Position numbers and translations under genes: made by a program. The notes beneath the pieces are model-generated. The model was not told the DNA's origin, searched no databases, and saw nothing but the letters and a program-made list of their open reading frames with translations. From Candidatus Heritagella gallinarum (GTDB lineage Bacteria > Bacillota > Clostridia > Oscillospirales > Acutalibacteraceae), in assembly GCA_904394685.1 (NCBI GenBank), contig CAJFNK010000004.1:1-64000 (forward strand): DNA of 64,000 bases, given 5' to 3'. Shown here one piece after another: positions 13,903 through 22,362 of the stretch. Positions within the stretch are counted from its first letter, which is position 1, and each line of letters begins with the position of its first letter.

Positions 13903-14002
13903 GTGTTATCGGGAATAAAAAAGTGGGGAGAAGGGAAAAGCGGAAACATGGTAGAGTACGGGCAGGCGGGAAACCGTCAAAACAGGCAGAAAGGAGAGAA
14001 CC

Positions 14003-14617
14003 GTGGTGCGAGAGAAAGAATGGCTGACATGGTTTTCGCAGGAAGGGGACGGAGAGGGGGATTCTGGCAAGCGCCAAAAGAAACCGGAAGCGAAAAAGCG
14101 CTTGGAATCTGAGAAGGATTCGGAATCTGGGAAAGATTCGCAATCTCCCAAAGACTTGGAATCTGCCAAAGACTCCGAGCGCACCCTTGCCAAAGAGGAA
14201 TATCTGGCAGAGATGCGGGCCAGAGGAGAAGAAGAAGTCCGGCGCAAGATGGAACGCAGCGCAGCAGACTGGATTCGGGAGAGCCGGGCGCTGGAAATCG
14301 CCTATCCGGGCTTTAAGCTGGAAAATGAATGTCGTGACCCCCGTTTTTTGCAGCTGCTGGAAATCGGGATGGACATGAAATCGGCGTTTGAGGCGCTGCA
14401 TCACAAGGAGATTCTGGCCAGTGCGGTGCGGTATGCGGCAGAGAGCGTGACCCGAAAGCTGGTGGATAGCTTGCAGAGCCGGCAGGGACGGATGCTGGAA
14501 AACGGAGTGTCCGGCAGGAGCAGTGGCGTTGTCCGGCCGGATGTGAAGCGCATGACCCGAAAAGACCGGGAAGAAGCGGAAAGACGGGCGCTTCATGGGG
14601 AGAGAATCACGTTTTAA
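14003..14617 (+). CDS. Capsid scaffolding-like protein
   Basis: 204 aa, highly charged. Residues 15-60 are a Lys/Glu/Ser/Asp repeat region, with KDSE/KDLE-type units repeated several times. The rest is predicted helix (YPGFKLENECRDPRFLQLLEIGMDMKS read in two parts) ending in MTRKDREEAERRALHGERITF-like sequence. That C-terminal pattern is typical of scaffolds directly before N4-gp56-type major capsid genes in Firmicutes phages (recalled, not searched). GTG 14003 or GTG 14006 follows AAGGAG. First gene of the virion-type run; no terminase or portal precedes it. Confidence 0.7.
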   Translation: MVREKEWLTWFSQEGDGEGDSGKRQKKPEAKKRLESEKDSESGKDSQSPKDLESAKDSERTLAKEEYLAEMRARGEEEVRRKMERSAADWIRESRALEIAYPGFKLENECRDPRFLQLLEIGMDMKSAFEALHHKEILASAVRYAAESVTRKLVDSLQSRQGRMLENGVSGRSSGVVRPDVKRMTRKDREEAERRALHGERITF

Positions 14618-14639
14618 AAAAGGGTTTGATTTGACCGTG

Positions 14640-14735
14640 TAGGGGCGCACGAACACCGGCGGTGTTCTCTGTGTGCGCCCGGAACGTCCCCCTCAATGAT
14701 ACCGGATGTCGAACCGCCCGGAATGTACCGCTCCC
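14640..14735 (+). repeat. REP-like palindromic repeat inside the capsid cluster
   Basis: GTAGGGGCGCAC...GTGTGCGCCCGG with an inner ACACCGGCGGTGT, of the same kind as 12098-12195. It lies between the scaffold and capsid genes. Confidence 0.6.
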
Positions 14736-14789
14736 GTTTTGAAATGAATAAAAATTTTGGAATCCACTGAATATGGAGGAGTTGATTGT

Positions 14790-15800
14790 ATGAATGATCT
14801 GAAACTGAATTTGCAGCTGTTTGCAGTCCAGACCACCACCACCAACGGGGAAAACAACGATTTGACCCCCGAAATGAAAACCTATTACGAAGATCGCCTC
14901 ATCGATCTGGCGGAACCCAGACTGGTTCACGACCAGTTTGGCGACAAGTATCCCATTCCCCAGAACGGCGGCAAGGTGATCGAGTTCCGCAAGTATAGCC
15001 CGCTGGCAAAGGCGCTGGAACCCCTGACCGAAGGCGTGACCCCCGACGGTAACAGCCTGAATGTGACCGCTGTAACCGCCGAGGTCAAGCAGTACGGCGA
15101 TTATATCCAGCTTTCCGATATGCTGCAGCTCACCGCTATCGACAACAACGTGGTGCAGTGTACCAAGCTGCTGGGCGCTCAGGCAGGCCGCACGCTGGAC
15201 ACCCTGACCCGTGAGGTTCTGAGCGGCGGCACCAACGTGATTTATGCGCCCAAGGTGGCCGACGGCGTAGAAACCCCGGTTTCTTCCCGTGCCCAGCTGG
15301 ACGCTACCAGCCGTCTGACGGTGGATTTGGTGTTCAAGGCAGCCGCCACACTGGAGGCCATGAACGCCGCCCCCATCGACGACAGCTATGTGGCCATTAT
15401 CCATCCCTTTGTGGCCTATGACCTGATGCGCTGTGAGGAATGGGTGGACGCTCACAAATACGCCAGCCCGGACAACATCTATGCCGGGGAGATCGGCAAG
15501 ATCGGCAACGTGCGCTTTGTAAAGTCTACCGAAGCAAAAATCTGGAAGGGTGAAGGCTGCCCGGATGGGCTGGCGGTGTTCTCCACGCTGGTGTTGGGTG
15601 CAAGCGCTTATGGCGTGACCGAGGTGACCGGCGGCGGGCTGCAGCACATTGTAAAGCAGCTGGGCTATGGCGAAGACCCCCTGAACCAGCGCTCCTCCTG
15701 CGGCTGGAAGGCGACCCGTGCCGCCAAGCGTCTGGTAGAGGAATATATGGTGCGGATTGAATCCTGCTCCGCTTATTCCGCAACGGCAGAAGCCAACTGA
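14790..15800 (+). CDS. Major capsid protein, N4-gp56 family
   Basis: 336 aa. Family features are the N-terminal LKLNLQLFA, the block LVHDQFGDKYPIPQNGGK, PLAKALEPLTEGVTPDG, TVKQYGDY-like VKQYGDYIQLSDMLQLTAIDN, and a long C-terminal region with YGVTEVTGGG. These define HK97-fold capsid subunits of the N4-gp56 type, which form the icosahedral shell. No cleavable delta domain or protease gene is seen. ATG 14790 follows GGAGGA by nine bases. All family blocks look intact, so the gene does not look like a decayed remnant. The surrounding region lacks packaging genes (see findings). Confidence 0.9.
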   Translation: MNDLKLNLQLFAVQTTTTNGENNDLTPEMKTYYEDRLIDLAEPRLVHDQFGDKYPIPQNGGKVIEFRKYSPLAKALEPLTEGVTPDGNSLNVTAVTAEVKQYGDYIQLSDMLQLTAIDNNVVQCTKLLGAQAGRTLDTLTREVLSGGTNVIYAPKVADGVETPVSSRAQLDATSRLTVDLVFKAAATLEAMNAAPIDDSYVAIIHPFVAYDLMRCEEWVDAHKYASPDNIYAGEIGKIGNVRFVKSTEAKIWKGEGCPDGLAVFSTLVLGASAYGVTEVTGGGLQHIVKQLGYGEDPLNQRSSCGWKATRAAKRLVEEYMVRIESCSAYSATAEAN

Positions 15801-15821
15801 GTTTGAAAGGAGTGCTTGCAC

Positions 15822-16055
15822 ATGGCAGGAAAGAAAATGGTAAAGGTAAAGCTGTTTAAGGATTACGGCGAGTACCGGGACGACGTGTTTGTGGCGGTGA
15901 ACGGGGAAAGCTACCTGCTCCAGCGGGGCGTGGAGGTAGAGGTGCCCGACTATATCGCCGAGGTGCTGCAACATTCCGCCGAGCAGGACGAGAAAACCCA
16001 GCAGCTGATGGCGCAGACTCAGGCACGATATCAGAAAAAGACCGCCTCTTTATGA
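15822..16055 (+). CDS. Small capsid-associated protein, unrecognised
   Basis: 77 aa, lysine-rich N-terminus then acidic middle (VAVNGESYLLQRGVEVEVPD) and a glutamine-rich helix. Proteins of this size and pattern often follow the capsid gene in Firmicutes phages, but the role (head decoration or completion) is unknown. ATG 15822 follows GAAAGGAG. A CCGCCTC/GAGGCGG hairpin spans the stop codon. Confidence 0.65.
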   Translation: MAGKKMVKVKLFKDYGEYRDDVFVAVNGESYLLQRGVEVEVPDYIAEVLQHSAEQDEKTQQLMAQTQARYQKKTASL

Positions 16056-16097
16056 GGCGGCTCCTTGTGAGGTAACTCATTATGAGGAGGAAACGCT

Positions 16098-16466
16098 ATG
16101 ACCATTGACGAAGCAGTGGCCCAGTGCGACCGGGTAAAGCCCAACCAGTATCCCAAAAGCGAAAAAATCCGCTGGCTCTCCCAGCTGGACGGGACGATTC
16201 AGAAGGAAATCCTGGACTACTATGAGGCGGGGGAATTTGCGGGATATGGGGAAGACACGCCGGGCGAAACCGAGCTGCTGGCCCCGGAACCCTATACCGG
16301 GATTTATGAAGCGTATCTCTCGGCACAGGTGGATTTCCACAACGGGGAGTTTAGCCGCTATCAGAACAGCGCACAGCTCTATAACACGATTCTTTCGGCG
16401 CTGGCGGCGTGGTTTCGGAGAACCCGGATGCCCCTGCAGGAAAACTCCATCCGCTGTCAATTTTAA
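16098..16466 (+). CDS. Head-tail connector-like protein
   Basis: 122 aa, mostly helical. The pattern KPNQYPKSEKIRWLSQLDG, then YDxIYxxYLxAQxDxxNGE-like sequence, then LAAWFRRTRMP at the C-terminus is what I know from gp6-type connector/adaptor proteins downstream of phage capsid genes. Assignment is by pattern and position only. ATG 16098 follows GAGGAGG. Confidence 0.65.
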   Translation: MTIDEAVAQCDRVKPNQYPKSEKIRWLSQLDGTIQKEILDYYEAGEFAGYGEDTPGETELLAPEPYTGIYEAYLSAQVDFHNGEFSRYQNSAQLYNTILSALAAWFRRTRMPLQENSIRCQF

Positions 16467-16476
16467 AGAAAGGAAG

Positions 16477-16510
16477 TCCCCCGTCTGTTGCTGCTGCGGC
16501 AGGCGGGGGA
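16477..16510 (+). other. Stem-loop between connector and next gene
   Basis: TCCCCCG-T-CTG (16477-16487) pairs with CAG-G-CGGGGGA (16499-16510). It lies between a distant SD (AAAGAAAGGAAG, 16465-16476) and ATG 16525; folding would bring the SD to about 14 bases from the start. Confidence 0.6.
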
Positions 16511-16524
16511 TTGCGGTATCAGAG

Positions 16525-18273
16525 ATGTTTTTACCATATATGGGCGAGGTGCCCCGTGTTCGCTCGGTGCTAAACCAGTTTGGCGGCTATTGCCACACCA
16601 ACACCTGCACCGATGGGCAGTTTTATGAGATGGGCAACCTTTCGGCACGGGACGCCCCCCTGCTGCGCCCCCGCAAGCAGAGGGGCACCATCCGGCAGTT
16701 TTCTCAGCCCTGGGGGCTGTTTGGGCGGGAAAAGCTGTGCTGGGTGGACGGAACCGATTTTTATTATAACGGCTTTTTGGTGGGGACGGTTGAAGCCAGT
16801 GAAAAGCAGTTTGTGGGGATGGGCGCCTATCTGCTCATCTGGCCGGACAAGAAATATTACAACATCCAGACTGGGGAGTTTGGCGATTTGGGGGCTTCTT
16901 TCACCAGCGACGGCTCGGTGGGGTTCACCCTTTCCAAGCAGGACGGGACAGCCTATGAAGGCTATACCGCCAGCGCCGAGCCGCCGGAATCCCCCGAAAA
17001 CGGCGCTTTGTGGCTAGACACCAGCCAGACGCCCCATGTGCTCAAGGAATATGCCTCCTCTGGGCGGATGTGGGTGGAAATTGCCACCACCTATGTAAAA
17101 ATCAGCTTTGCCAATCTGGGAAAGCTGTTTCAGCAGTATGACGGGGTAACAGTTTCGGGCTGCACCGGGACAGCCAAGGGGCTGAACGGCTCGTGTGTGA
17201 TTCAAAGCCAGGGGGATGACTGGATTGTGATTCCCGGCGTGCTGGACACCGCCTATGAGCAGTCGGAGCCGGTGACGATTGCCAGGGAAATCCCGGACAT
17301 GGAATTTTTGACCGAGAGCGAAAACCGGGTGTGGGGCTGCTCCTCCAAAAAGAACGAAATCTATGCCTGCAAGCTGGGCGACCCCACCAACTGGAATTGC
17401 TTTGAAGGCATTTCCACCGACAGCTATGCGGCTACGCTGGGTTCGGACGGGGCGTTTACCGGCGCCTGTACGCATCTGGGCTATGTGCTGTTTTTTAAGG
17501 AGGACATGATTCACAAGGTGTATGGAACCCAGCCCTCTAACTTCCAGATTACCAACAGCCCGGTGCGGGGGGTCAAGAAGGGCAGCGAACGCTCGCTGGT
17601 GATTGTAAACGAAACGCTCTATTATCACAGCCGCAACGGGGTGTGCGCCTATGACGGCGGGATGCCGGTGGCGATATCGGCTTCACTGGGCAGCGGGGTG
17701 TATCAGAACGCCCGTGCAGGCACGGTGGGCGACTGCTATTATCTCTGCATGGAAAGCCCGGAAAACGGCTGGGAGCTGTTTGTGTATGACGAATCCGCCG
17801 GGCTGTGGCACCGGGAGGACAAAACCTGTGTGCGGTGGTTTGCCAGAGTGGGGGGCGAACTGTATTTTATCGCAGAGGACAACCGCCTGTATGCAGTAAA
17901 CGGCAGCACGTCCCTTTATGAAGGGGATGAAGGCTCGCTGGGAGAAACCGAAGCGCCGGTTTCGTGGTTTGCCGAGAGCGGGGACATGTATACCGAGGTG
18001 AACCGGTATCTGGCAGGGATGCAGTTCTGCTTCCATCTGGAGCCGGGAAGCCGGGTGACGGTCAAGCTGCGGTATGATAACGGCGACTGGGAACCGGTGG
18101 CGGAGATCTCCACGCAGGAAAAGCGCTATTATAACCTGCCGGTGATTCCCCGGAGATGCGGGATGCTGCGGCTGCGCCTGGAAGGCGTGGGCGACATGCA
18201 GCTCTATTCTGTGACCCGCACCATGGAGGACGCTACCGAGCTGCCGGAGCCGGGAAACTGGAAAACGCCGTAG
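16525..18273 (+). CDS. Virion protein, possible beta-propeller head/tail stabilisation protein
   Basis: 582 aa, beta-rich. It begins MFLPYMGEVPRVRSVLNQF and has repeated strand-turn units (TESENRVWGCS, NEIYACKLGDPTNW, GYVLFFKEDMIHKVYG, NETLYYHSRNGVCAYDGG, YYLCMESPENGWELFVYD, GELYFIAEDNRLYAVNG). These spaced repeats suggest a propeller like the P22 gp10/T7 tail-tube-associated group, by pattern only. The frame is open back to 16222, but that stretch overlaps the connector gene and looks non-coding. ATG 16525 has no close SD; a stem-loop upstream may reposition one. Confidence 0.65.
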   Translation: MFLPYMGEVPRVRSVLNQFGGYCHTNTCTDGQFYEMGNLSARDAPLLRPRKQRGTIRQFSQPWGLFGREKLCWVDGTDFYYNGFLVGTVEASEKQFVGMGAYLLIWPDKKYYNIQTGEFGDLGASFTSDGSVGFTLSKQDGTAYEGYTASAEPPESPENGALWLDTSQTPHVLKEYASSGRMWVEIATTYVKISFANLGKLFQQYDGVTVSGCTGTAKGLNGSCVIQSQGDDWIVIPGVLDTAYEQSEPVTIAREIPDMEFLTESENRVWGCSSKKNEIYACKLGDPTNWNCFEGISTDSYAATLGSDGAFTGACTHLGYVLFFKEDMIHKVYGTQPSNFQITNSPVRGVKKGSERSLVIVNETLYYHSRNGVCAYDGGMPVAISASLGSGVYQNARAGTVGDCYYLCMESPENGWELFVYDESAGLWHREDKTCVRWFARVGGELYFIAEDNRLYAVNGSTSLYEGDEGSLGETEAPVSWFAESGDMYTEVNRYLAGMQFCFHLEPGSRVTVKLRYDNGDWEPVAEISTQEKRYYNLPVIPRRCGMLRLRLEGVGDMQLYSVTRTMEDATELPEPGNWKTP

Positions 18274-18313
18274 CAGCGGGAGTTTCGTCCGAACAAAAAG
18301 GAGATGGAAAGAG

Positions 18314-19081
18314 ATGAAGGGATTATCATTTACCCTGCCGGGGCTGGAACAGGCGACAGATCCCCGGCAGCTGAGAACCTGTTTGCTGCGCCTGGTGGAG
18401 GAGCTGCAATATGCCCTCTCTAACCTGGACATGGGGAATTTTACGGCGGACACGCAGAAACGGCTGGAGACGGTGGAGAAAACCGCCCAAAAAGCCGATG
18501 AAACCGCCAACGAAAACGCAGCGGCCGCCAAAGCGGGATTTGAGGAAGTCTATGAGGAGATTATCCGAACCGCCGGGGAGCTTTCCAGCGAGTTTGAGGT
18601 TTCTCTGAACCAGCGGGAGGACTCCATCCTCTCGCAGGTTTCGGAGGAGTTTACCGCCAAATCGGACACGGCCCAGCTGGAAGAAACCTTTCGCTCGGAG
18701 CTGGAACAGACCAGCCAGAAAATCGAGATGCGGTTTTCGGATGCCGCCAACCTGACGCAGGAAGTGGCGGGGGATTTGCAGGAATACCAGAACCTGGTGG
18801 AAACGTATATCCAGTTTAACACAGAGGGCATCACCCTGGGAAAGCAGGGCAGCCCGTTTCAGGCGGTGCTGGGAGAAGAACGGCTTTCGTTTTTGCAAAA
18901 CGGCGTGGAAATCGCCTACCTCTCGAACAACAAGCTGTATATCACCAGCGGCGAAATCCTTGACCGCTTTACGGTGGGCAACGACGCAAGCGGGTATTTT
19001 GACTGGATTCCCCGTGGCAGCGGCAATCTGGGAATGAAATGGAGAAAGCCGGCGCCGCCTGCGGCTTTGCAGCGGCGATGA
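18314..19081 (+). CDS. Coiled-coil tail protein
   Basis: 255 aa. Residues ~35-160 are strongly coiled-coil (Glu/Ala/Lys/Thr, few prolines). The C-terminal ~70 residues (ITLGKQGSPFQAVLG, LSNNKLYITSGEI, FTVGNDASGYFDWIPRGSG) match the end domain of phage tail/endopeptidase-like proteins. Possibly a tail fibre stalk or baseplate component. ATG 18314 follows AAAAAGGAG. It sits between the propeller-like gene and the large fibre gene. Confidence 0.65.
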   Translation: MKGLSFTLPGLEQATDPRQLRTCLLRLVEELQYALSNLDMGNFTADTQKRLETVEKTAQKADETANENAAAAKAGFEEVYEEIIRTAGELSSEFEVSLNQREDSILSQVSEEFTAKSDTAQLEETFRSELEQTSQKIEMRFSDAANLTQEVAGDLQEYQNLVETYIQFNTEGITLGKQGSPFQAVLGEERLSFLQNGVEIAYLSNNKLYITSGEILDRFTVGNDASGYFDWIPRGSGNLGMKWRKPAPPAALQRR

Positions 19082-19100
19082 CCGGGGAAGGGGGCTTTGT

Positions 19101-21020
19101 ATGCCGGAACTTGTAAAAAATTACAGCAACGGCTCTGCCATTAAAATTGTCTATTCGGTGTCCCAGAATGTGAGCAAAAACCAGAGCACCGTCACCATGA
19201 CGCTGTATGTCCACCGTGACAGCTATGGCCCCAGCTGGAACACCCACTGTAATTCCTATATCCAGCTGGACGGCGCCAATGTGATGACCTATACCGGGAG
19301 CTTTCGTATCAGCACCAGCTGGGTGAAAATCGGCTCTACGGTGAGCAAAACGGTTACGCACAACAGCGACGGCACCAAAACCATTGCGCTCAAGGGCTTT
19401 TTTGACTCGCAGGGACTGACCACCAAGCTGGACGACCTCACCGTTACGGGCAATGTGACGCTGAAAACCATTCCCCGTGCGTCCAAGGTGAACGGGGTTT
19501 CGGGCAGCACCATCGGCAGCCCGATCACGGTTTCCATCAGCCGGGAGGTATCGGGCTTTACCCACAAGGTTTATTATTCCTTTGGAAGCGTGAAAGACCG
19601 GCTGCTGGGCAGCAATGTGGGAACCAGCCTGACCTTTACGCCGCCGATGGAGGACTGCGGGCAGGTTCCCAACAGCACGAGCGGCACCGCTACCATTCGG
19701 GTGGACACCTATAACGGCAGCACCAAAATTGGCTCGTCCAGCAAAAACATCACGCTGAAAGTGCCGTCGTCGGTGGTGCCTACCATGACCGGGATTAGCT
19801 TTACCCCGATAAACGGGCAGGTTCCGGCGGGGTGGGAGATTTATGTCCAGACCAAAAGCAAGGTGACGGCCAAAATTACCGGGGCGGCGGGCGCTTATGG
19901 CAGCACCATCAAGAGCTATTCGATATCGGGCGGGGGATATTCCGGGACGTCGTCCAGCCTGACCACCGGCTTTTTGAATAAAGCGGGCAGTATCTCGTTC
20001 ACAGCCAAAATTACCGACAGCCGGGGGCGCACCGCCACCAAAACCGCCAGCATCTCTGTGGAGGAATACGCTCCGCCGGTGCTTTCTTTGGCAAAGGCGT
20101 TCCGGTGCAACGAACAGGGAGAGGAACAGGACGACGGGGCGTATCTCTCGCTCACGCTCCAGTTTTCGGGGCATGACCTGGGCGGCAAAAACGCCATCAC
20201 CGGCGGATACCGCACCCAGGCCGAGGAGGGAAGCTGGTCGGGGCTTTCGCCGGCAGAAAACGGCAAAGCGGTGATTTTTCCCGCCAACCCGGATTTGACC
20301 CTGACGGTACAGGCGCAGGCCGCCGACACCTTTGGAGAGGTCACGAAAGACCTGACGGTGAACTCCACCCGGTTTATCATGGACTTTCGGGCGGGAGGAA
20401 ACGGAATCGCCTTTGGAAAAGCGGCGGAATATGACGACCTCTTGGACACCAACTGGGAAGCGAGGTTCCGCAAGGGAATCCAGATGATGGACGCCAATGG
20501 GGCGTTTTATGCGTTGGTTTATAATGGCGCTAACCTCTGGATCGGAGCACTCCGTACAGATGACAGCGGCGAAACACTGGCAGGGCATCATACCGGGAAA
20601 ACCTATATCAGCGCCGGGATCGACGAAGTGACCGGGAAGGGGCATAACAGTATTTATGTCAGCGTCCCTTCTTCTGAATCAGAAGCCCAGAATTTTGAAG
20701 CGCTGCACAAAGGGAATACCATGCAGAAATTATGGAGCGGCTCCTGGAGCAGCGGCACGATCACGGTACCTGGCAGCGACCAGTACAGCATATTCAAGAT
20801 TTCCATGCAGGGACAGGGCACTACCATTTTGGCGGCAAAGCAGGCACAGTATGTGAGAGGCGGAAACAGCTATTCTTCCGACACCCCCTCGGTTGTTTTT
20901 TATCATTTTGCGGCAACATTCAGCGGCGAGAAATGGACGTTTGTGGCGTGTAACAGTAACGCTCTGGGCAGTACCAGCCTGAACAAAATCACGGTTACAG
21001 AAATCTGGGGAATTGTATAA
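19101..21020 (+). CDS. DUF859-type phage minor structural (tail fibre) protein
   Basis: 639 aa, Ser/Thr/Gly-rich beta protein. The N-terminal part (NYSNGSAIKIVYSVSQN, LYVHRDSYGPSWNT, VTHNSDGTKTIALKGFF) and FRAGGNGIAFGKAAEYDDL near residue 440 match the DUF859 siphovirus structural family. A further ~190 residues of unknown fold end the protein (NSIYVSVPSSESEA, ITVTEIWGIV). It is probably a receptor-binding or tail-tip fibre. ATG 19101 follows GGGGAAGGGGG, 19 bp after the coiled-coil gene. Confidence 0.8.
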   Translation: MPELVKNYSNGSAIKIVYSVSQNVSKNQSTVTMTLYVHRDSYGPSWNTHCNSYIQLDGANVMTYTGSFRISTSWVKIGSTVSKTVTHNSDGTKTIALKGFFDSQGLTTKLDDLTVTGNVTLKTIPRASKVNGVSGSTIGSPITVSISREVSGFTHKVYYSFGSVKDRLLGSNVGTSLTFTPPMEDCGQVPNSTSGTATIRVDTYNGSTKIGSSSKNITLKVPSSVVPTMTGISFTPINGQVPAGWEIYVQTKSKVTAKITGAAGAYGSTIKSYSISGGGYSGTSSSLTTGFLNKAGSISFTAKITDSRGRTATKTASISVEEYAPPVLSLAKAFRCNEQGEEQDDGAYLSLTLQFSGHDLGGKNAITGGYRTQAEEGSWSGLSPAENGKAVIFPANPDLTLTVQAQAADTFGEVTKDLTVNSTRFIMDFRAGGNGIAFGKAAEYDDLLDTNWEARFRKGIQMMDANGAFYALVYNGANLWIGALRTDDSGETLAGHHTGKTYISAGIDEVTGKGHNSIYVSVPSSESEAQNFEALHKGNTMQKLWSGSWSSGTITVPGSDQYSIFKISMQGQGTTILAAKQAQYVRGGNSYSSDTPSVVFYHFAATFSGEKWTFVACNSNALGSTSLNKITVTEIWGIV

Positions 21021-21033
21021 GGAGGCAGCCAAC

Positions 21034-21435
21034 ATGCAGATACAGGTAACAGACGGATATATTACCGGTTATGCCCAGACCGGCGGGTTTGTGGATGGGA
21101 TAGAGGTGCCGGATGATTTTTTGGGGGATATGACCCCGGAAGAAATCCGGTGCTGCCGGTTTGAAAACGGGGCGGTGGTATTGGATGAATCCCGGCTTTT
21201 GCAGCAGCAGGAAGCTGGCGAGCTGGAACAGCTTCGGGAAATGCGGGCAATTGAATGTTTCCCGGTGGTCAACCGTGGAAAGCCCTGGTATGACCGGCTG
21301 ACCCCGCAGCAGCAAAGCGAACTGGACAGCTGGTATCAAAGCTGGCTGGATGTTACCATTAGCCATGACATCCCCCAGATGCCGGCCTGGATACGGGGTG
21401 GGCTGAAAGCAGGAACCAGAGAATATATACAATAA
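21034..21435 (+). CDS. Tail-fibre-associated small protein
   Basis: 133 aa. N-terminal MQIQVTDGYITGYAQTGG leads into a short beta region. The C-terminal NRGKPWYDRLTPQQQSELDSW-type helix and LDVT...IPQMPAW pattern are those of small proteins encoded after tail fibres in Firmicutes phages, often labelled tail assembly chaperones. AAGGAGG lies eight bases before ATG 21034. Function is inferred from position. Confidence 0.65.
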   Translation: MQIQVTDGYITGYAQTGGFVDGIEVPDDFLGDMTPEEIRCCRFENGAVVLDESRLLQQQEAGELEQLREMRAIECFPVVNRGKPWYDRLTPQQQSELDSWYQSWLDVTISHDIPQMPAWIRGGLKAGTREYIQ

Positions 21436-21483
21436 GGCAAAAACGCAAACAATATTTCTTTTTGTATAAAGGAGGGGTGGGAG

Positions 21484-22362
21484 ATGGCCACCACGCATAA
21501 GGTACAATGGGGGGACACCCTGTGGGATTTATCGAGAAAATATGGGGTTTCCATCGACTCAATTGTGAAGGCAAACAAGCAGATCAAAGACCCGCACTGG
21601 ATTTATACCGGCGACACGTTGGTAATTCCAACCGGAGGTTCTTCGGGTTCTTCTTCCTCAAAGGGAAGCCAGTCAGGCGCCAAGCAGAGCAAGCCGCCCG
21701 CTTATGAATCGGGAAAACCGACGTATAAGCCTTCGGGAAGCCTGACAGCGCTGGAAAACCAGCTCAAGAAGCTGGAATCCCAGAGGCCGGGGGAATACAA
21801 CTCCCAGTATACGGAGCAGATTTCGCAGTTGGTAGATCAGATTCTGAACCAGAAGGAATTTTCGTATGATTTGGCGTCTGACCCCATGTATCAGCAATAT
21901 AAAGCGCAGTATATGCAGCTGGGCAATCAGGCGATGCGGGACGTGATGGGGCAGTCGGCCGCCCTGACGGGAGGATATGGCAGCAGCTATGCCGCCACAG
22001 CGGGGAGCCAGGCATACAACCAGTATCTGACGCAGCTGAACCAGCAGGTGCCGGAGCTTTATAATGCGGCCTACAGCCGGTATACAGCGGAGCAGGACCG
22101 GATGCTGGACCAGATGGATCTGCTGATGGAAATGGATCAGGCGGATTATGAAAAATACCGGGAACAGGTTTCGGACTATCAGGATCAGCTGGACTATTAT
22201 AAAGACAAATATCTCGAGCAGCAGGAGCGGGAATTCCGGGAATATCAGGAGAAGCTGGACGCATGGCAAAAGGACCGGGACTATTACTACAAGAAGGGGC
22301 AGGACGCACAGGACCAGAAGCGCTGGGAAGAAGAAATGCGGCGTAAATGGTATACGATGTGA
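21484..22362 (+). CDS. LysM-containing virion protein with coiled coil
   Basis: 292 aa. One LysM peptidoglycan-binding domain at residues 4-50 (HKVQWGDTLWDLSRKYGV, IYTGDTLVIP). A Ser/Gly linker and a helical domain containing FSYDLASDPMYQQYK and LTGGYGSSYAATAGSQAYN follow, then a Tyr/Gln/Glu-rich coiled coil to the end. The middle block recurs in Firmicutes phage virion proteins (recalled). There is no signal peptide, so it probably reaches the wall as part of a particle or by lysis. Last gene of the virion-type run; a MITE begins 38 bp later. Confidence 0.78.
   Translation: MATTHKVQWGDTLWDLSRKYGVSIDSIVKANKQIKDPHWIYTGDTLVIPTGGSSGSSSSKGSQSGAKQSKPPAYESGKPTYKPSGSLTALENQLKKLESQRPGEYNSQYTEQISQLVDQILNQKEFSYDLASDPMYQQYKAQYMQLGNQAMRDVMGQSAALTGGYGSSYAATAGSQAYNQYLTQLNQQVPELYNAAYSRYTAEQDRMLDQMDLLMEMDQADYEKYREQVSDYQDQLDYYKDKYLEQQEREFREYQEKLDAWQKDRDYYYKKGQDAQDQKRWEEEMRRKWYTM

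Follow-up and report, generated by a model that had tools for sequence, protein, structure and literature searches.

A podovirus-type head-tail cassette in Candidatus Heritagella gallinarum is probably one module of a dispersed element resembling gene transfer agents

To understand the origin of a group of virion-like genes in Candidatus Heritagella gallinarum, we analysed a 64,000-nucleotide stretch of its genome (contig CAJFNK010000004.1, positions 1 to 64,000; hereafter the window), in which nine uninterrupted open reading frames (ORFs; g1 to g9), all on the + strand, occupy positions 14003-22362 and are flanked by the host genes for a penicillin-binding protein (PBP) and yfhO. An earlier note on this DNA had described this cassette as nine intact same-strand structural genes between PBP and yfhO, and the description holds, as the ORFs, encoding 204, 336, 79, 122, 582, 255, 639, 133 and 292 amino acids (aa), are uninterrupted and give clear matches in PHROG and Pfam profile searches. 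The statement that packaging, integration and lysis genes are missing from the locus was also correct: no gene for a terminase, portal, integrase, repressor or holin/endolysin was found within 14003-22362, and neither a terminase nor a portal gene adjoins the cassette. For comparison within the genus, we used four congeneric genomes (G001-G004) in addition to the window genome (G000), all of which are drafts or metagenome-assembled genomes (MAGs).

The first gene of the cassette, g1 (14003..14617; 204 aa, GTG start), stands in the position of a scaffold gene and matches phrog_13908 (E = 1.2e-34), with a weak match to the head scaffolding family phrog_2932. It is followed by g2 (14790..15800; 336 aa; phrog_1357, E = 4.7e-88), which encodes a major capsid protein with the N4 gp56-like HK97 fold; the top PDB matches of its AlphaFold2 model (pLDDT 81.6) are phage N4 capsids (3.6e-16). 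The small conserved head protein encoded by g3 (15816..16055; 79 aa; phrog_15239, 5e-25), which starts at either TTG 15816 or ATG 15822, is 87-89% identical among congeners. The next gene, g4 (16098..16466; 122 aa), belongs to a family without assigned function (phrog_12105, 6.7e-35) and is retained in nearly all homologous clusters; its position suggests that the product is the adaptor between portal and nozzle. We assign g5 (16525..18273; 582 aa; phrog_511, 7.9e-67) as the tail nozzle protein, with a beta-propeller, because PDB matches 1-20 of its AlphaFold2 model (pLDDT 90.1) are all podovirus tail structures, the best being P22 gp10 (E = 9.5e-15). The first in-frame ATG of this gene is at 16222, and the start was moved to 16525 (MFLPYM...), as used by the orthologue. 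A coiled-coil fibre-base protein is encoded by g6 (18314..19081; 255 aa; phrog_18110, 8e-20), which also matches tail fibre and host-specificity families (1e-9 to 2e-8) and is present in all four cassette-bearing species. The DUF859 tail fibre or receptor-binding protein encoded by g7 (19101..21020; 639 aa; PF05895, 5.7e-65; phrog_372, 1.5e-89) varies among congeners, and the G003 copy of the gene is displaced from the cassette to contig C33. The small fibre-associated protein encoded by g8 (21034..21435; 133 aa) has weak matches to the tail fibre family phrog_300 (0.074) and to DUF2977 (0.0011), and no counterpart in the three cassette-bearing congeners. Finally, g9 (21484..22362; 292 aa) encodes an N-terminal LysM domain (1.7e-13) and a C-terminal helical region that is conserved; in other genera the match often starts at residue 74-117, past LysM. 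Its position and domain point to a wall-binding or ejected virion protein.

Since the genes of Bacillus phage Pascal are ordered TerS-TerL-portal-scaffold-capsid (TerS and TerL being the small and large terminase subunits), we searched the window genome for a P22-type portal (phrog_156). A single such gene is present, on contig C18, which also carries genes for TerS, TerL and a Prp-type protease, so the term 'orphan' does not apply to the cassette genome-wide, whereas the suggestion that packaging genes of a GTA-like system (GTA, gene transfer agent) lie elsewhere is borne out. Within C18:13001-33000 (L148), TerS (L148:2111-2635) and TerL (L148:2628-4058) are followed by an ADP-ribosylglycohydrolase gene and then ileS, on the opposite side of which stand the portal gene (L148:9256-11073) and the Prp-family protease gene (L148:11070-11414), whose start overlaps the portal stop as ATGA. 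TerL matches PF03237 (1.6e-13) and has a Walker A motif (GGAAGGGKS) and acidic nuclease motifs; domain matches of the packaging genes include PF16510 (4.1e-32), and the Prp domain is recognised in congeners at 8e-14 to 3e-16. In L148 (8880-9110) and in L151 the portal gene follows a near-identical intergenic stretch that resembles a repeat (GGGGAAACCCCAGACGTGGGTTTCCCC ... CCACCTTTTATAAAAGGTGGACGAAAATTTT) and is a possible route for moves. Two other candidate partners were rejected. A PF03354 terminase on contig C82 (L118) belongs to the HK97-type siphovirus cassette (HNH-TerS-TerL-portal) of another prophage, and the sole match in the window genome to phrog_38, the Pagevirus TerL family, is an unrelated terminase with an internal stop in a fragment of another prophage on contig C75 (L157), near another Prp homologue; this family thus misses the partner TerL. 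The Pascal TerL and portal were too distant as tblastn queries to detect the partner genes.

A compartment derived from capsids, which would be DNA-free and similar to an encapsulin, had been raised in the same note, as had a wall-targeted structure. The HK97 fold of g2, with an encapsulin chain among its lower-ranked fold matches, is compatible with the former, but phage N4 capsids rank above it, and the capsid is conserved together with scaffold, portal, TerL, nozzle and fibres. Retention of portal, terminase and tail nozzle makes both proposals unlikely, and we regard the compartment as highly improbable.

The same note had listed the maturation protease as missing, which is true of the cassette but does not extend to the genome, given the Prp-family gene overlapping portal on C18. 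The N-terminus of the window capsid, MNDLKLNLQLF|AVQ, contains a predicted Prp cleavage site. The strict motif occurs in 43 of 133 distinct capsids, compared with 3 of 2660 control stretches, and comparable N-termini are seen in many capsid and scaffold homologues; the motif is degenerate in g1 itself, many homologues of which begin with a clear LNLQLF[AD]. In phage 80alpha, the capsid and scaffold are cleaved by the host Prp at a motif shared with ribosomal protein L27, KLNLQFF|A (PMC5744158). The system described here resembles that of 80alpha in that capsid and scaffold both have the L27-like N-terminal LNLQ-F|A motif, but differs in that 80alpha relies on a single host Prp, whereas the window genome has an additional Prp-family gene, the one overlapping portal, in which the His/Cys pair is intact. 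In its product the spacing GHA...12...C is as in the known pair. Considering the motif at these N-termini and the 80alpha precedent, the portal-adjacent Prp is a good candidate for the maturation protease, and cleavage of capsid and scaffold by Prp, as in 80alpha, is probable. The second, canonical Prp gene adjoins the gene for L27, which begins MLKINIQLFA, and its product could perform this cleavage too.

The cassette is present in four of the five genomes (G000-G003), the remaining genome being 61% complete, and the capsid is 90-93% identical (tblastn) in the three cassette-bearing congeners, which are also the most complete of the four. TerL (88-92% identical) is found in all five, as is the portal, which occurs in one copy per genome and never near the cassette where the latter is present. 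In G000 the cassette is flanked by PBP and yfhO, as it is, in the opposite orientation, in G003; it lies beside yfhO in G001 and in another place in G002; no common insertion site that might explain its position was found across G000-G003. TerL and portal are separated by ileS in G000-G002 and stand on separate contigs in G003 and G004, and overall the particle genes are spread over 2-4 loci in the genus. Approximate dN/dS ratios (nonsynonymous to synonymous substitution rates), calculated by NG86, are 0.04-0.27 for the cassette genes compared (0.15-0.21 for g1, 0.05-0.10 for g2 and about 0.09-0.11 for g9), 0.04-0.12 for TerL and portal and 0.06-0.11 for host neighbours, and none of the genes compared contains an internal stop. 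The cassette and the packaging genes are under purifying selection, like their host neighbours, and follow the host lineages. The proposal that selection maintains the cassette therefore agrees with ratios far from neutral.

These data bear directly on the possibility that the cassette is the remnant of a decaying prophage, in which nine frames have stayed open by chance. Such an origin would account for phage-derived genes at a locus without integration or lysis genes. However, the same genes are intact in four species with the low dN/dS ratios given above, unlinked packaging genes are conserved alongside the cassette and the dispersed modules have a common promoter (see below). Moreover, the GC content of the cassette (55.9%) is host-like (53.6% in the flanking host genes and 52.5% in the window), unlike that of the low-GC 42-48 kb island (42.8%), and no close relative carries a complete prophage at the site. 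This explanation is largely refuted and retains very little probability.

The closest known counterpart is FpGTA, the GTA of Faecalibacterium prausnitzii, in which operon I comprises TerS, TerL, portal, scaffold and capsid, and operon II the tail fibre and lysis genes (Borodovich et al., Nat Commun 2026, PMC12946183). F. prausnitzii ATCC 27766 produces particles of ~40 nm with ~9 kb of host DNA, and GTA-like DNA packaging has also been seen in Gemmiger, Onthomonas, Ruminococcus callidus and Christensenellaceae, in which the genes were not located (PMC12946183). Strain APC923/51-1, listed as a carrier of FpGTA I (PMC12946183), contains a contiguous operon (L192) in the same order, with TerL, portal and capsid 69%, 53% and 66% identical, respectively, and one such portal in the genome; by our own identification, this operon is the putative FpGTA I. 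The two elements share a homologous gene set of podovirus type and the absence of mobility and replication genes at their loci. FpGTA is near-ubiquitous in its genus, much as the packaging genes occur in 5/5 genomes here, and has its tail and fibre genes at a second locus, as in the dispersed form. In Faecalibacterium, however, TerS, TerL, portal, protease, scaffold, capsid and nozzle form one 10 kb operon, whereas in the window genus there is a break between portal-protease and scaffold, ileS splits TerS-TerL from portal, and the fibre genes lie within the capsid cassette (alone in G003). That the element belongs by descent to the FpGTA family, in dispersed form, is well supported.

A promoter-like element, AAAAAGTGGGGAGA-N20-TAGAGT (13918..13957, + strand), lies 77 to 46 bases upstream of g1, and the same element is found before TerS and portal on C18. 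Its full form upstream of the dispersed modules is A-run-NNN-GGGGAGC-N19-TAnnAT. The core, RGGGAG[CA]-N18-20-TAnn[AG]T, occurs 59-102 bases ahead of the start codon at 13 of 15 module heads in the five genomes, whereas shuffled sequence would give an expected 0.045. Across the same genomes there are 13 matches to the strict form, 8 of them before TerS, portal or cassette, and 0 to the reversed pattern, used as a control; the copy at the window cassette is a variant, detected by the looser form. All five heads outside the derivation set match, namely TerS of G001, G003 and G004, the portal of G004 and the displaced fibre gene of G003, where the held-out sequence is GGGAGC-N19-TACAAT. A more relaxed pattern gave as many matches as its reversed control and was uninformative. 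Since the element lacks a TTGACA -35 box, this promoter is likely to depend on an activator or a special sigma factor. No copy of the element was detected upstream of TerS in Faecalibacterium or in other genera. The region upstream of TerS in Faecalibacterium (L187, L192, L199, L205) seemingly carries its own conserved element, AAAAG-GCACACTGT-GGG ... GGTATCCT/GTAGGAT, which differs from GGGGAGC.

The N-terminal region of TerS that resembles a helix-turn-helix (HTH) also varies. It is kept in G000 and G001 and absent from G002-G004, in which the promoter stands 62-63 bases upstream of a shortened TerS gene, and from Faecalibacterium. The TerS of FpGTA thus has no recognisable DNA-binding domain, whereas that of the window species keeps the HTH. 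Loss of this region fits random packaging, and the authors of the FpGTA study argue likewise from a TerS lacking DNA recognition (PMC12946183).

To place the genus in a wider context, we examined homologous loci elsewhere, one scan of clostridial genomes yielding 449 confirmed loci, of which 80 were kept. Among 300 genomes of the family, 24 have both capsid and portal, 3 the capsid only and 2 the portal only. Of 124 informative homologous loci, those of Faecalibacterium among them, 113 have portal and capsid together, usually with the portal 0.7-1.9 kb upstream; the other 11, which include two pairs of duplicates, lack the portal despite at least 7 kb of upstream sequence. The contiguous form is also carried by a cultured relative, Cuneatibacter sp. 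NSJ-177 (L178). Long contigs of two further genera (G200, G111) show capsid and portal at a great distance from each other. The genus forms one clade in the capsid tree (support 100), as does Faecalibacterium (95), and the contiguous or dispersed state requires at least 7 changes on this tree, so the dispersal of capsid and portal probably arose more than once. Dispersal is further advanced in L241 and L243, where just scaffold, capsid and g3 remain together (by hisS/aspS in L241) and the portal is distant or on another contig. Several IMG/VR 'viral' contigs with this capsid, including L008, L009, L011, L012 and L016, resemble the contiguous GTA-like cluster; in L008 a leucine-rich-repeat protein gene sits between the Prp gene and the scaffold. 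The capsids of L108, L109, L112, L113 and L115 have an insertion of ~70-110 residues after about residue 250, possibly a surface domain. In Massiliimalia timonensis (L239:136-15541), a prophage-like region encodes a homologous capsid; an ORF of 2893 aa separates portal from scaffold there, and holin/endolysin-like ORFs follow downstream, so the capsid family serves real phages too.

The occurrence of homologous capsids in prophage-like regions such as L239 raises the possibility of a real prophage whose parts act in trans and which packages its own element, or of a phage satellite, since capsid and terminase genes outside a helper phage recall the capsid-forming phage-inducible chromosomal islands (PICIs). 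However, no integration, excision or replication genes lie beside the cassette or the C18 modules, whose neighbours are host-like (PBP, yfhO, ileS and ADP-ribosylglycohydrolase), and the linked integrase, regulatory, replication, packaging and lysis genes of a functional prophage are not found at these loci. Three or four loci that are unlinked could not be mobilised as a single genome; PICI capsid islands have no tail nozzle, whereas the cassette has its own nozzle and fibre genes; and the pattern in the capsid tree is vertical. We therefore consider both forms of this explanation very unlikely.

Altogether, we think it likely that the nine genes form the head-tail module of a domesticated podovirus-type GTA-like element, which is vertically inherited and scattered over the chromosome. 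By analogy with FpGTA, particles of the GTA kind that carry DNA are probably still made by the window bacterium, and packaging of host DNA by the element would follow from the same comparison. The strongest competing explanation, which we nevertheless judge unlikely, is that DNA-filled particles kill or coat related cells without gene transfer, like PBSX of Bacillus subtilis, with LysM and fibres aimed at the cell wall. Wall targeting is suggested by the LysM protein and the variable DUF859 fibre gene, and the FpGTA authors leave a killing or coating role open for the homologous particle (PMC12946183). On the other hand, a portal, a nozzle and a complete terminase under purifying selection exceed the needs of a tail-like killer, and a podovirus nozzle differs from a contractile tail.

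Other known systems of this kind are the alphaproteobacterial GTAs RcGTA and CcGTA, which are likewise domesticated, vertically inherited particle genes over several loci, presumably switched on jointly, with a TerS of reduced DNA specificity. Those GTAs, for which packaging has been proven experimentally, are of siphovirus-like ancestry and have other capsid, portal and tail families. The Pagevirus podophage Pascal (NC_027372) shares the gene order from TerS to capsid, and its capsid is 36% identical, but it is a free lytic phage with a 39.6 kb genome, other fibres and a capsid N-terminus without the Prp motif.

A fuller model, which we advance tentatively as falling a little short of probable, is that of a working podovirus GTA built from three to four unlinked loci, joined in one regulon by a dedicated promoter (GGGGAGC-N19-TAnnAT), with its own Prp-family protease, shifting from sequence-specific to random packaging by repeated loss of the TerS DNA-recognition domain and having relatives widespread in gut Clostridia. 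The dispersal, the common promoter, the dedicated Prp and the repeated loss of the TerS HTH are the new features here. Under the GTA-like interpretation that we consider likely, a single activator or sigma factor would turn on all modules, and the scaffold and capsid proteins would form a small procapsid around the portal. The Prp protease would then trim scaffold and capsid after LNLQLF|A, as the host Prp does in 80alpha, and TerL, together with a TerS whose DNA-recognition domain is lost or being lost, would fill the head with pieces of the host chromosome. The adaptor (g4), nozzle (g5), fibres (g6-g8) and LysM protein (g9) would finish a short tail that might bind the wall of related cells and deliver the DNA.

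Several observations weigh against the GTA-like interpretation. As TerS of the window species keeps its HTH, packaging might be sequence-specific. No holin, endolysin or regulator was identified; holin/endolysin genes are reported for FpGTA II, whereas the cassette here has none, no genome-wide lysis search having been made. The G002 cassette has a degenerate promoter copy only, and 5 of the 13 strict promoter matches, which fall inside unrelated host genes or at their edges, were set aside. In addition, the dN/dS values are approximate because dS is near saturation, and the distances between loci are minimum estimates because the genomes are drafts or MAGs.

Our findings extend the FpGTA gene family to many clostridial genomes. 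As its genes can be scattered, searches for prophage-like clusters miss them, and the portal-Prp gene pair, the LNLQLF|A motif and the common promoter provide three handles for finding and testing such elements. Cassettes in gut genomes that appear to encode an 'orphan capsid' may therefore be parts of a DNA-transfer machine rather than debris.

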